A stretch of 64,000 bases of DNA. It comes from an uncultured Allomuricauda sp. GTDB taxonomy: Bacteria > Bacteroidota > Bacteroidia > Flavobacteriales > Flavobacteriaceae. The notes under the pieces were generated by a model. The model was not told the DNA's origin. It ran no database searches and was given only the letters and a program-made list of their open reading frames with translations. A program made the position numbers and the translations under genes. The DNA is taken from positions 62,001 through 126,000 of the forward strand of contig NZ_CAMYIC010000012.1 in assembly GCF_947258355.1 (NCBI RefSeq). Direction: 5' to 3'. Positions 52,874 through 57,666 of the stretch are shown piece after piece; position 1 is the first letter of the stretch, and each line of letters starts with the position of its first letter.

Positions 52874-53158
52874 ATGCGAAACCCTTTAAAACTTCGGAAA
52901 AACAAGAGCTTTGATTATACCCCTAGATATTATAAGGGGGAGGGTAATCCTTATAAAATTGAGCACAAACTTGATAAATTTAGAACTACGGCGCACTCCA
53001 CAAAGGGACTCAAAAACAAGTTCACTTCTGCAATGGATGATTTGCAGACGGAAGGGGATAAAAATTTAAAGCTTCGTTTCTGGATTATTTTGGCCGTTTT
53101 GGTGTTACTGTTCCTGTTTATCATCGATTTTGATCTATCAATATTCCTAAATCCATAA
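52874..53158 (+). CDS. Small single-pass membrane protein
   Basis: The 94-residue protein has a basic cytoplasmic N-terminal region (KLRKNKSFDYTPRYYKGEGN), then one membrane helix (about 69-89) and a short C-terminal tail. Homologues in Flavobacteriaceae are sometimes named riboflavin synthase subunit beta because of the nearby ribH, but the sequence has no such domain. Its stop overlaps the mutL ATG by one base, so it is probably translated with mutL. Function is unknown. Confidence 0.72.
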   Translation: MRNPLKLRKNKSFDYTPRYYKGEGNPYKIEHKLDKFRTTAHSTKGLKNKFTSAMDDLQTEGDKNLKLRFWIILAVLVLLFLFIIDFDLSIFLNP

Positions 53159-55008
53159 TGGCCGACATCATTAAACTTTTACCGGACCATGTCGCTAACC
53201 AGATAGCCGCAGGGGAGGTGGTTCAACGACCCGCTTCCGTGGTTAAAGAGCTGATGGAAAATGCTATAGATGCAGGTGCTACTTCTATTAAATTGATTAT
53301 TAAGGATGGTGGCAAAACACTCATTCAAGTAGTCGATGATGGTGTAGGGATGAGCGAGACAGATGCTCGATTATCTTTTGAGCGCCATGCCACATCCAAA
53401 ATATCATCCGCACAGGATTTGTTCAATCTGGAAACAAAAGGTTTTAGAGGTGAGGCTTTGGCATCAATCGCCGCAATTGCCCATGTGGATATGCAGACAC
53501 GCACTGAGGATAATGAAATCGGGACCCATTTAAAAATTGAGGGAAGTAAAATTGTATCCCAAGAAGTAGTGGCCACTCCAAAGGGAACCTCAATATCCGT
53601 AAAAAATCTGTTCTTCAATATTCCTGCGAGACGTAACTTTTTAAAGTCCAACCAGGTGGAACTCCGCCATATTACGGATGAATTCCATCGTGTTGCCATG
53701 GTGCATCCCAATGTCGAATTTCACTTTTACAACAATGGTTCGGAAATGTTCAATTTGCCCAGTACAAAACACCGTCAACGTATTGTGCATATTTTTGGCA
53801 GTAAAATGGAACACCGTTTGGTTCCTGTAAACGAAGAAACCGAGGTAGTAAAAGTTTCTGGATTTATTTGTAAACCCGAGTTTGCCAAAAAGAGCAGGGG
53901 AGAGCAATTCTTTTTTGCCAATAACAGGTATATAAAAAGTCCTTATTTGCACCATGCTGTTGTGGCAGCTTTTGAAGGGTTGATTAAATCAGATACCTAT
54001 CCAGGCTATTTTCTTTTTTTGGATGTAGATCCAGCTTCCATTGATATAAACATTCATCCAACCAAAACCGAGGTAAAGTTTGATGATGAAAATACCCTTT
54101 ATGCCATTTTAAGGTCCACGATAAAACATAGTTTAGGACAGTTCAACGTGGCTCCGGTATTGGATTTTGATCATGATCCCAATTTGGATACACCCTATTC
54201 CTACAAAGAAAAAGGGGCAGTAATTCCAAAAGTTACGGTTGATGTAACATTTAATCCCTTCAAAGAAACAGCACCCAAAGAAAATACCTCGGGAAGCAGT
54301 TTCCGTAAACAAAGCACCAAAGGTTGGGAGGATTTGTACGAAGGACTTGGCAATCAGAATGACCATCAAGAGTTCAGTAGCGTGGTAATCGAGTCTGAAA
54401 GTGAGGAGCAAGGTACCTTGTACTCGGGAGAAGAGATCGAAGAGCATTTGGCCGCCACGTTTCAATTACGACGCAAATTTGTGGTGAGTACCGTTAAGTC
54501 GGGCATGTTGGTCATCCATCAAAATAGGGCCCACGAACGCATTCTTTTTGAGAAGTTTTTAGGTGAAATCACCGTAAAAGAAGGTGTGAGCCAGCAGTTG
54601 CTCTTTCCTTTGGAACTTACTTTTAACAAACAGGAGCTGGCCGTACTCAAGGAAATCCAAGAAAGCCTGACAAACATTGGGTTTGCTTTTCAGAGTTTGG
54701 AAGAGGAAACTGTAAAAGTGACAGGCGTGCCCATGATGGTTCCGGAAAGTGGGATTGGCACGGTATTAGACCGTTTAATTGCAGATTATATGGAGGGGTA
54801 TACCGACGGTTCCATTTCGCAGGCCGAAATGTTGGCCAAGGTGCTGAGCAGGAACCTGGCGGTACGTACAGGCGATATGTTGGATAGTGAGTCGCAGTTG
54901 ATGTTGGTAAACAACCTTTTTGCATGCAAAGAACCCACATTGAGCCCTTTTCAAAAAATAACATATACCATTATCTCCGAAGGGGATATCGATAAAAAAT
55001 TCAATTAA
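53158..55008 (+). CDS. mutL: DNA mismatch repair protein MutL, endonuclease motifs missing
   Basis: The 616-residue protein has the N-terminal GHKL ATPase (N35 in MENAIDAGA, DDGVGM near 60-65, GFRGEAL 95-101) and a C-terminal dimerisation domain. The DQHA(x)2E(x)4E endonuclease motif is replaced by HQNRAHERILFE (454-465), and the C-terminal CPHGRP position reads LSPFQKIT. It is therefore probably a non-endonuclease MutL. Length fits the family. Confidence 0.93.
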   Translation: MADIIKLLPDHVANQIAAGEVVQRPASVVKELMENAIDAGATSIKLIIKDGGKTLIQVVDDGVGMSETDARLSFERHATSKISSAQDLFNLETKGFRGEALASIAAIAHVDMQTRTEDNEIGTHLKIEGSKIVSQEVVATPKGTSISVKNLFFNIPARRNFLKSNQVELRHITDEFHRVAMVHPNVEFHFYNNGSEMFNLPSTKHRQRIVHIFGSKMEHRLVPVNEETEVVKVSGFICKPEFAKKSRGEQFFFANNRYIKSPYLHHAVVAAFEGLIKSDTYPGYFLFLDVDPASIDINIHPTKTEVKFDDENTLYAILRSTIKHSLGQFNVAPVLDFDHDPNLDTPYSYKEKGAVIPKVTVDVTFNPFKETAPKENTSGSSFRKQSTKGWEDLYEGLGNQNDHQEFSSVVIESESEEQGTLYSGEEIEEHLAATFQLRRKFVVSTVKSGMLVIHQNRAHERILFEKFLGEITVKEGVSQQLLFPLELTFNKQELAVLKEIQESLTNIGFAFQSLEEETVKVTGVPMMVPESGIGTVLDRLIADYMEGYTDGSISQAEMLAKVLSRNLAVRTGDMLDSESQLMLVNNLFACKEPTLSPFQKITYTIISEGDIDKKFN

Positions 55009-55743
55009 ATGGGTAGAATGACCGAGGCAGTAAAGCATATATTGATCATTAACGTGATCATGTTTTTTGCCACATTTTTATACGGGGATCAAATGTACCA
55101 ATGGATGTCGCTATGGTTTCCCAAAAATCCAAATTTTGAATGGTGGCAGGTGGTTTCACATATGTTCATGCACGGTAACCTAATGCATATTCTGTTCAAT
55201 ATGTATGCCCTTTGGGCCTTTGGTACACCATTGGAGCGTATTTGGGGCAAGAACAAGTTCCTGTTTTTTTACTTTTCTGCTGGTTTAGGGTCTGCTGCAC
55301 TGCATACAGGTGTGAATTATTTTCTTTTCAACGAAGGAATGAGTGCTTTGGAAGGAGCAGGCATTGCCCGTACACAGATTTTGGATATTTTGGCCAACGG
55401 GCAGTATAGTCCAGGTTGGTACGATATCGCAGGGAAAAGCACCGTGGACAGTATGCTGACTGCTTTTAATACACCAGCGGTAGGAGCATCTGGGGCTATC
55501 TATGGTATCTTGGTTGCTTTCGCGTTTATGTATTCTGAGGCAAAACTGATGCTTATCTTTTTGCCCGTACCGGTAAAAGCGAAATATTTTGTACCAATTC
55601 TAATTGCAGTTGACCTTATTTTTGGAATAGGAAATGTGAATACGGGTGTGGCACATTTTGCCCACATAGGTGGTGCTTTAATAGGATTTTTGATGATGTG
55701 GTATTGGAAAAAGAACCAGTTTAACAATAATCGATGGGATTAA
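55009..55743 (+). CDS. Rhomboid-family intramembrane protease (1)
   Basis: The 244-residue polytopic membrane protein has the rhomboid serine in VGASGAIYG (S161) and the catalytic His in AHFAHIGGAL (H219); the HGNLMHILFNMYALW stretch (about 57-71) is the family L1 region. The dyad is complete, so activity is likely; substrates are unknown. It begins immediately after mutL and is followed 3 nt later by a second rhomboid. Confidence 0.87.
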   Translation: MGRMTEAVKHILIINVIMFFATFLYGDQMYQWMSLWFPKNPNFEWWQVVSHMFMHGNLMHILFNMYALWAFGTPLERIWGKNKFLFFYFSAGLGSAALHTGVNYFLFNEGMSALEGAGIARTQILDILANGQYSPGWYDIAGKSTVDSMLTAFNTPAVGASGAIYGILVAFAFMYSEAKLMLIFLPVPVKAKYFVPILIAVDLIFGIGNVNTGVAHFAHIGGALIGFLMMWYWKKNQFNNNRWD

Positions 55744-55746
55744 CCT

Positions 55747-56610
55747 ATGATGAACGGTGGATTACGATATCAATTTGCTAGGCTCAGTATAGCGGAGAAG
55801 CTAATTGCTATTAACGTACTTATTTTTCTAATTGATGGACTTTCCGGTGCTTTGCTGGGGCATTCGTTTTCGCAATGGTTTCTACTGCCCAAGGATTTTT
55901 TTGATTTTTTGACCCAGCCATGGTCGTTGGTCACCTATTCGTTTTTCCATGCAGGTTTTGGTCATATTTTTTGGAATATGATCGTGCTCTATTTTGCCAG
56001 TCGAATATTTTTAAACCTTTTTGATTCCCAAAGGTTTATCAATGTATATTTTTTGGGGTTGATGTTGGGTGGACTGGTATTTCTGTTGAGCTATAATGTA
56101 TTTCCGACCCTTGTTAATTCCAATACAGCCTTGATAGGGGCATCCGCAGGAGTAAATGCGGTGCTTATTTTTGTTTGCGCCTATATTCCCAACCAAGAGG
56201 TGCGACTCATCTTTTTCAATATCAAGTTGTGGTATATCGGTGCGGCTTTGGTCATCAAGGATTTGGTAATGATCGGGATGGGAGATAACATCGGTGGAGG
56301 AATGGCACATCTGGGTGGTGCTTTTTTGGGATACATGTATGCGAGACAGCTGTTCAAAGGCAATGATATAGGTTCTGGTTTTACGAAATTACGGTATGCG
56401 ATAGTGGATCTTTTCAAGCCCAAAGAGAAAAAGGCACCGCTTAAAACAGTCTACAAGAAAAAAGCGTCATCAACTAGCAAGAAGGATTATGATAAACAAG
56501 CCAAACAGCGTAAAATAGACTCAATTTTGGATAAAATCAGTAAATCTGGTTATGAGAGCTTGTCCAAAGAGGAAAAAGATTTTTTGTTTAAGGCTGGTAA
56601 GGAAGACTGA
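55747..56610 (+). CDS. Rhomboid-family intramembrane protease (2), with basic tail
   Basis: The 287-residue protein has about six membrane helices; S133 in ALIGASAGVNAV and H188 in MAHLGGAF form the dyad. A basic cytoplasmic C-terminal tail (KPKEKKAPLKTVYKKKASS, then a final helix) of about 80 residues is added. It is a tandem, diverged paralogue of the preceding gene. ATG codons occur at 55747 and 55750. Confidence 0.86.
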   Translation: MMNGGLRYQFARLSIAEKLIAINVLIFLIDGLSGALLGHSFSQWFLLPKDFFDFLTQPWSLVTYSFFHAGFGHIFWNMIVLYFASRIFLNLFDSQRFINVYFLGLMLGGLVFLLSYNVFPTLVNSNTALIGASAGVNAVLIFVCAYIPNQEVRLIFFNIKLWYIGAALVIKDLVMIGMGDNIGGGMAHLGGAFLGYMYARQLFKGNDIGSGFTKLRYAIVDLFKPKEKKAPLKTVYKKKASSTSKKDYDKQAKQRKIDSILDKISKSGYESLSKEEKDFLFKAGKED

Positions 56611-56613
56611 TAC

Positions 56614-57666
56614 GTGAAAAACCTTTCATTTTTTGATAAAATCGTCTTTTTTCTGAACACTCTAGCAGCTTTGGTGTTGTCAGTTTCCTTGCTTGTACCC
56701 TATGCTCCAATCAAAATAATATCTTCTCTTTCGATAGTAAGTCTGATAGTTCCCTTTACAGTACTCATTAATTTGATTTTTGTGGTTTATTGGTTGCTGA
56801 AAAGCAAACGGAACTTTTTATTGTCAGGAATTTTACTGTTGCTTTGGTATTTATTGCTTGGACCATTTTATCAATTTTCCAATGGGGGTGATGAATCCAA
56901 TATTGACAATGAAAATTCATTTTCAGTCATGTCCTTTAATGCCAGAAGTTTTAATGAATTAAAGCAAATAAAGGAGGATAACGTTGAAGAAAGGATTTAT
57001 GAATTTGTTTCCCAACAAAATCCGGATGTGGTTTGCTTTCAAGAAACTTTGTATGCCATGAAAGTTAATGATGCCCTTAGCCAATATGAATATAAATTTG
57101 TCGATTTTATATATGGTAAGCATCGTGGAAAAGTTATTCTTTCGATTTACTCTAAATACCCTATTGCAAAAGTAGATTCCATAATATTCCCCAATAGTTT
57201 CAATAACGCGATATACGCAGATATCCTATTTCGGAACGATACTATAAGAATCTATAACTTGCACTTGCAGTCATTCAGGATAGTTCCAGGTCTGAATACC
57301 ATTCAAAATGCGGAATCGAACAGACTATTTGAGAAGTCCCGAGACGTTATGCTAAAACAATACCAGCAGGCTAGTTTAATACGTCAAAACATGAATGAAA
57401 CCAATTTTAAGAAGGTAGTGGTAGGAGATTTTAACAATACTCAATACTCCAATGTGTACCATGCTATTAAAGGGGATATGAAGGATTCTTATTTTGAGAT
57501 GGGAAAAGGTTTTGGTCGTAGTTATGATTTGCTAAAGTTTCCTATCCGAATAGACTATATATTGGCAGATCCTGAATTTGAAGTCCTTGACCATCAAAAT
57601 TTTGATGTTCGATTATCCGATCATTATCCCATTATGGCCACTTTACGCCTAAAATCAGATCAATAG
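56614..57666 (+). CDS. Membrane-anchored endonuclease/exonuclease/phosphatase-fold protein
   Basis: The start is GTG at 56614, 3 nt after the rhomboid stop; no suitable ATG precedes the first helix. The 350-residue protein has three N-terminal membrane segments (about 10-88) and an EEP domain: VMSFNARSFNEL, CFQETL, VVGDFNNTQ and SDHYPIMA, giving the N, E, D/N and D/H active-site residues. The EEP domain is probably periplasmic; its substrate (nucleic acid or phospholipid headgroup) is unknown. It overlaps the convergent gene by 12 nt. Confidence 0.85.
   Translation: MKNLSFFDKIVFFLNTLAALVLSVSLLVPYAPIKIISSLSIVSLIVPFTVLINLIFVVYWLLKSKRNFLLSGILLLLWYLLLGPFYQFSNGGDESNIDNENSFSVMSFNARSFNELKQIKEDNVEERIYEFVSQQNPDVVCFQETLYAMKVNDALSQYEYKFVDFIYGKHRGKVILSIYSKYPIAKVDSIIFPNSFNNAIYADILFRNDTIRIYNLHLQSFRIVPGLNTIQNAESNRLFEKSRDVMLKQYQQASLIRQNMNETNFKKVVVGDFNNTQYSNVYHAIKGDMKDSYFEMGKGFGRSYDLLKFPIRIDYILADPEFEVLDHQNFDVRLSDHYPIMATLRLKSDQ

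Follow-up and report, generated by a model that had tools for sequence, protein, structure and literature searches.

Class-wide loss of the MutL endonuclease ligand set, followed from the mutL gene of a marine flavobacterium

How is the new strand nicked during mismatch repair when MutL carries no endonuclease motif and no MutH accompanies it? This question is raised by the mutL gene in a 64,000-nucleotide stretch of DNA (the window) from a Flagellimonas/Allomuricauda-like marine flavobacterium, whose class we take to be GTDB Bacteroidia. An earlier note on this DNA reported that the motif was replaced and stated that bacteria outside the Dam/MutH group usually rely on a nicking MutL. The same rule appears in the available parts of PMC12733681, PMC9159922 and PMC2965676, as a dichotomy between MutH and, where MutH is lacking, a MutL that nicks. 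To this dichotomy, the class of the window appears to be a major exception. In the literature accessible to us, partly as excerpts, no report that this class lacks the MutL endonuclease was found; priority is unsure, and Banasik and Sachadyn (2014) and Putnam (2016) may contain the point.

The metal site of the window MutL

The gene product scores 499.1 bits against TIGR00585 (MutL equivalog; cut-off, 180) and 84.2 bits against PF08676 MutL_C (cut-off, 25), passes the cut-off of PF01119, and matches the HATPase, DNA_mis_repair and MutL_C domains of Pfam. In the PDB it matches chains of the MutL family, including one fusion with the sliding clamp, and it is 95% identical to the MutL of Flagellimonas oceanensis. 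ELMENAIDAGA, DDGVGM and GFRGEAL are presumably the N-terminal ATPase motifs of MutL. One mutL copy was found in the genome (95.6% complete, 63 contigs); the search for a second MutL that the earlier note proposed gave none. The features of the gene are as follows.

53158..55008, plus strand: mutL, 616 aa, stop codon included
53248..53463, plus strand: GHKL ATPase motifs ELMENAIDAGA (residue 31), DDGVGM (residue 60) and GFRGEAL (residue 95), with Pfam HATPase matches
54439..55005, plus strand: C-terminal domain, residues 428-616, with the MutL C-terminal fold in an AlphaFold2 model
54517..54552, plus strand: HQNRAHERILFE, starting at residue 454, in the place of DQHA(X)2E(X)4E (motif II); D454H and H456N, with E460 and E465 kept
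54592..54609, plus strand: clamp-binding motif III, unchanged, as QQLLFP at residues 479-484 (fits QXLLXP)
54847..54873, plus strand: SRNLAVRTG, residues 564-572, motif IV, in which the Cys is lost (C565R)
54943..54960, plus strand: SPFQKI, residues 596-601, in the place of CPHGRP (motif V); C596S and H598F
54985..55002, plus strand: DIDKKF, residues 610-615, motif VI-like, by resemblance only

Six MutL C-terminal motifs are described in the available part of PMC2965676, which is also the source of our definitions of clamp-binding motif III and motif VI and gives H464, E468, C573, C604 and H606 as the Zn ligands of the B. subtilis protein. In an alignment with the B. subtilis domain and with canonical relatives, the window MutL has H/N/E/R/S/F at the ligand columns D454/H456/E460/C565/C596/H598, so that five of the six canonical ligand positions are changed and E460 alone survives. 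Two Glu residues are all that remains of DQHA(X)2E(X)4E, and neither the motif IV Cys nor the motif V pattern C(P/N)HGRP is present. The changes described in the earlier note were borne out on each point: H454 and N456 in motif II, by position and by alignment columns; LSPFQKIT, from residue 595, in the place of CPHGRP; and RNLAVRTGD without an ACR-type Cys. Because E460, E465 and the motif IV tail LAVRTG are kept, the metal site has been dismantled, not erased. The loss of the ligand set can be read directly from the sequence, and the nicking activity has probably gone with it.

The C-terminal domain was modelled with AlphaFold2 (pLDDT, 88.8; from 37 sequences). Its best structural match is N. 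gonorrhoeae MutL (TM, 0.79; Z, 18.4); B. subtilis MutL ranks next (Z, 14.5), ahead of that of E. coli (Z, 14.2). In this model the domain keeps the bacterial MutL C-terminal fold. When the domain was compared with that of 12 relatives, eight comparisons gave a dN/dS of 0.04 to 0.06, near synonymous saturation, and the other four were undefined on account of it. By this codon-based measure, the domain is under purifying selection; with its fold and clamp motif intact as well, it is not in decay.

The window MutL shares its domain order, C-terminal fold (TM, 0.64 to 0.79), motif III and E460/E465 with the endonuclease-type MutL of B. subtilis (3gab/3kdk) and N. gonorrhoeae (3ncv), and differs from them in the five changed ligand positions. 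It resembles E. coli MutL in its C-terminal fold (1x9z; TM, 0.73 versus the window model) and, according to the available part of PMC2965676, in combining a kept clamp motif with the lack of an endonuclease motif. However, it retains much of the motif II/IV/VI scaffold that E. coli MutL lacks.

Spread and timing of the ligand loss

Among loci with a usable C-terminal domain, none of the 78 named relatives and none of the 3 family/order genomes carries the complete C565/C596/H598 set, against 3 of 128 class genomes and 48 of 68 phylum genomes outside the class (68 of 186 examined, biased to high scorers and leaving out families f21, f37, f42 and f43); named loci and other genomes may overlap. 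The comparison of Bacteroidota C-termini proposed in the earlier note thus finds the set missing from 125 of 128 class genomes, all 3 family/order genomes and all 78 named relatives. Its absence from all named relatives rules out sequencing error or chance, and, as judged from the alignment, the loss is class-wide and not peculiar to the window MutL. An alignment-independent search of the tail for CP[HQ]G gave 0/78, 0/3, 3/128 and 49/68 for the same four groups. The ACR-motif regular expression was not used for counts, since the unrelated LFACK also matches it.

No sequence carries two of the three Cys/Cys/His residues. Among the named relatives, 76 have none and two (L064 and L101) have one; outside the class, 48 of the 68 have all six ligands, 19 have none of the Cys/Cys/His residues, and 1 has a single one. 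Each sampled family is uniform, many being represented by a single member. The three class exceptions (L114, L118 and L123) form one family, f75, the sole class family examined that has six ligands.

Two of the 80 named relatives taken were dropped as partial, leaving 78. Removed before counting were L054, L102 and L236, with partial frames, and L001 and L002, which are the window's own gene; L105 was counted with its last residues out of frame. The class search gave 148 genomes with MutL, of which 130 were taken besides the window's own and 17 were left out. The mutL frame breaks in L054, L102 and L105, all metagenome-derived assemblies, may reflect assembly error or pseudogenes.

To date the loss, trees were computed from the N-terminal region alone (residues 4-330), with the trait left out. 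Four state changes were obtained both in a larger quick tree of 130 rows, which places f75 as sister to the class losers (sequences missing the Cys/Cys/His set), and in a careful tree of 61 rows, where starred branches force at least four for the intact label. The careful tree puts 25 class, family and named losers on one side of a branch (99/87), and a single clade for all 39 losers is rejected (p-AU, 2.2e-5). The simplest account is one of four losses: in the class after the f75 split; in the f13/f25/f29/f31/f35/f39/f41 group, beside which f18 is intact; in f23; and in f24. Loss is favored over gain because the site is present in distant bacteria; change counts alone cannot separate the two. 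Given four state changes in the phylum sample, site-bearing and site-less lineages can be compared, for example f75 with the rest of the class.

Retention in losers was compared over 32 columns that hardly vary among intact sequences; it is much lower at the six ligand columns than at the other 26 (means of 0.27 versus 0.74, 0.13 versus 0.76 and 0.33 versus 0.92; p, 0.0009 to 0.0017). Part of this contrast follows from the definition of losers, which uses three of the six columns. Class/order losers retain the clamp motif in 119 of 128 cases, named relatives in 76 of 78, losers from outside the class in 13 of 20 and intact sequences in 45 of 51. In the window's order, L251 of family f2 has a far more diverged C-terminal domain (PF08676 E value, 6.9e-10) and reads SHSLLFS at the clamp motif; two further f2 genomes match PF08676 at E values of 1.4e-8 and 1.8e-7.

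Cys590 (54925-54927), six residues before C596, was considered as a substitute ligand and rejected, as 33% of intact sequences, including those of f75 and f18, carry it as well. It occurs in 99% of named relatives, 88% of class/order losers and 100% of other losers; being nearly fixed in losers and also present in part of the intact sequences, it looks ancestral.

A MutL that still cuts DNA, using a remodelled site built on D454/E460/E465 without the Cys and His ligands, would fit the conservation of A458, R461 and E465 at 85 to 100%, the presence of E460 and E465 in the window, and the fact that 74 of the 128 class/order losers, and 12 of the 20 from elsewhere, retain D454 together with E460. 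We nevertheless consider such activity unlikely: of the first-shell ligands that the available part of PMC2965676 gives for B. subtilis, only the Glu is left, D454 and E460 drift in Flavobacteriaceae (both kept in 4 of 78 named relatives), and A458, R461 and E465 may be structural. From these retention counts, a residual acidic metal site is possible outside Flavobacteriaceae.

Other strand-nicking enzymes and repair partners

Three nickase families, MutH, NucS and Vsr, were searched for. The earlier note had asked whether MutH is missing too; no match was found in the window's own genome (95.6% complete, 63 contigs), with a positive E. coli control. PF02976 (MutH) matched in 7 of 149 class-search genomes. 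Five of these proteins were scanned as candidates, those of G365 and G292 being outside this set; none passed the MutH cut-off and four passed that of Sau3AI. The fifth (213 aa, from L148) lies under every cut-off, with Sau3AI slightly best, and is ambiguous. By their profile scores, the class matches look like Sau3AI restriction enzymes. In this respect the window's genome and class, where no MutH is recognized, differ from E. coli.

NucS is absent from the own genome and was matched in 1 of 61 family/order/class genomes, below the cut-off, and in 40 of 247 genomes phylum-wide, a distribution that rules it out as a universal partner. NucS/EndoMS systems also perform mismatch repair without MutH or a MutL nuclease, but there NucS/EndoMS replaces MutS-MutL, whereas the window's genome has MutS-MutL and no NucS.

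Vsr was found in 79 of 247 genomes: 13 of 27 in the family, 0 of 3 in the order and 12 of 31 in the class (25 of 61 taken together), and 54 of 186 elsewhere. It was rejected as a universal partner, being neither in all losers nor confined to losers. The own genome carries a single Vsr that passes the TIGR00632 cut-off (L301:4204-4674, contig C18); the gene adjoins aminotransferase and HTH genes, and no methyltransferase was found among its three scanned neighbors. Vsr may matter here, since MutL raised gonococcal Vsr cleavage in vitro according to the available part of PMC6116569, although it is too patchy across genomes to explain the whole class. The check for a nicking partner suggested in the earlier note therefore yields, among these three families, none that is distributed widely enough for the whole group.

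MutS1 occurs in 246 of 247 phylum genomes and, like MutL, in all 61 family/order/class genomes. The own MutS passes the mutS1 cut-off and matches MutS domains I-V only, so that a nuclease fused to MutS was discarded. A UvrD/PcrA-like helicase of the own genome passes Pfam cut-offs and misses NCBIfam equivalog cut-offs, and RNase HII is present.

Could mismatch repair simply be inactive, with MutL serving another task such as recombination control? Our literature search gave no functional data for the class, which leaves room for this idea, but it is very improbable in view of the universal MutS1 and MutL (each 61/61), the kept clamp motif and the strong constraint.

Alternatively, the new strand might be cut by a separate endonuclease, still to be recognized, that MutL recruits and activates in the manner of E. 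coli MutH. The persistence of MutS1 and MutL under constraint and the kept clamp motif are what would be expected if MutL directs incision, and the own Vsr, together with the stimulation of its gonococcal counterpart reported in PMC6116569 (available part), points the same way. Against it, no candidate emerges among the three families (MutH, 0 of 5 scanned; NucS, 1/61; Vsr, 25/61 versus 54/186). We hold this explanation tentatively, as our next choice: the class and three independently losing phylum lineages might conduct MutS-MutL repair through such a MutL-directed nickase, without MutH or MutL endonuclease. If true, this nickase would be a third way of incising the strand.

Proposed origin of the strand break

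Our first choice, to which we give a probability of roughly one half, is that MutL is a clamp-tethered matchmaker without nuclease and that repair is guided by breaks already in the new strand. The intrinsic endonuclease would have been lost near the base of the class, and the window MutL would be an ordinary functional ortholog. It most likely still binds ATP, dimerizes and works with MutS while tethered to the clamp, acting as a matchmaker only. With no MutH recognized, strand choice would most likely come from existing discontinuities, such as Okazaki ends, gaps and nicks left by other repair (e.g., RNase HII). A UvrD-type helicase and exonucleases would enter at these breaks under the control of MutS-MutL. 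In this explanation, the lack of nicking and the origin of the break are inferences.

The all-or-none ligand loss and the presence of MutS1, the clamp motif, the fold, the constraint, a UvrD-like helicase and RNase HII argue for the matchmaker reading, as does the lack of MutH, NucS and a universal Vsr. Two points count against break-directed repair: the leading strand offers few existing breaks, and E. coli needs MutH in vivo even though a nick substitutes for it in vitro.

A model for a non-cutting MutL is offered by E. coli, where MutL sliding clamps coordinate exonuclease-independent repair (PMC6876574, available part). Human PMS1 and other non-catalytic MutL homologs of eukaryotes likewise have no nuclease motif (PMC2965676, available part); they differ in having a catalytic paralog in the same cell, whereas only one MutL was found in the window's genome. 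No mutS/mutL mutant study was found for the class in the literature accessible in part, and the portion of PMC13256674 available holds nothing specific.

A 94-aa ORF at 52874-53158, without a Pfam or NCBIfam family at an E value of 0.01, shares a single base with the mutL start codon. On the 3' side of mutL (55009-57666) lie two rhomboid genes and an endonuclease/exonuclease/phosphatase (EEP)-family gene, whose product has hydrophobic N-terminal segments, as seen by eye, and probably an exported domain.
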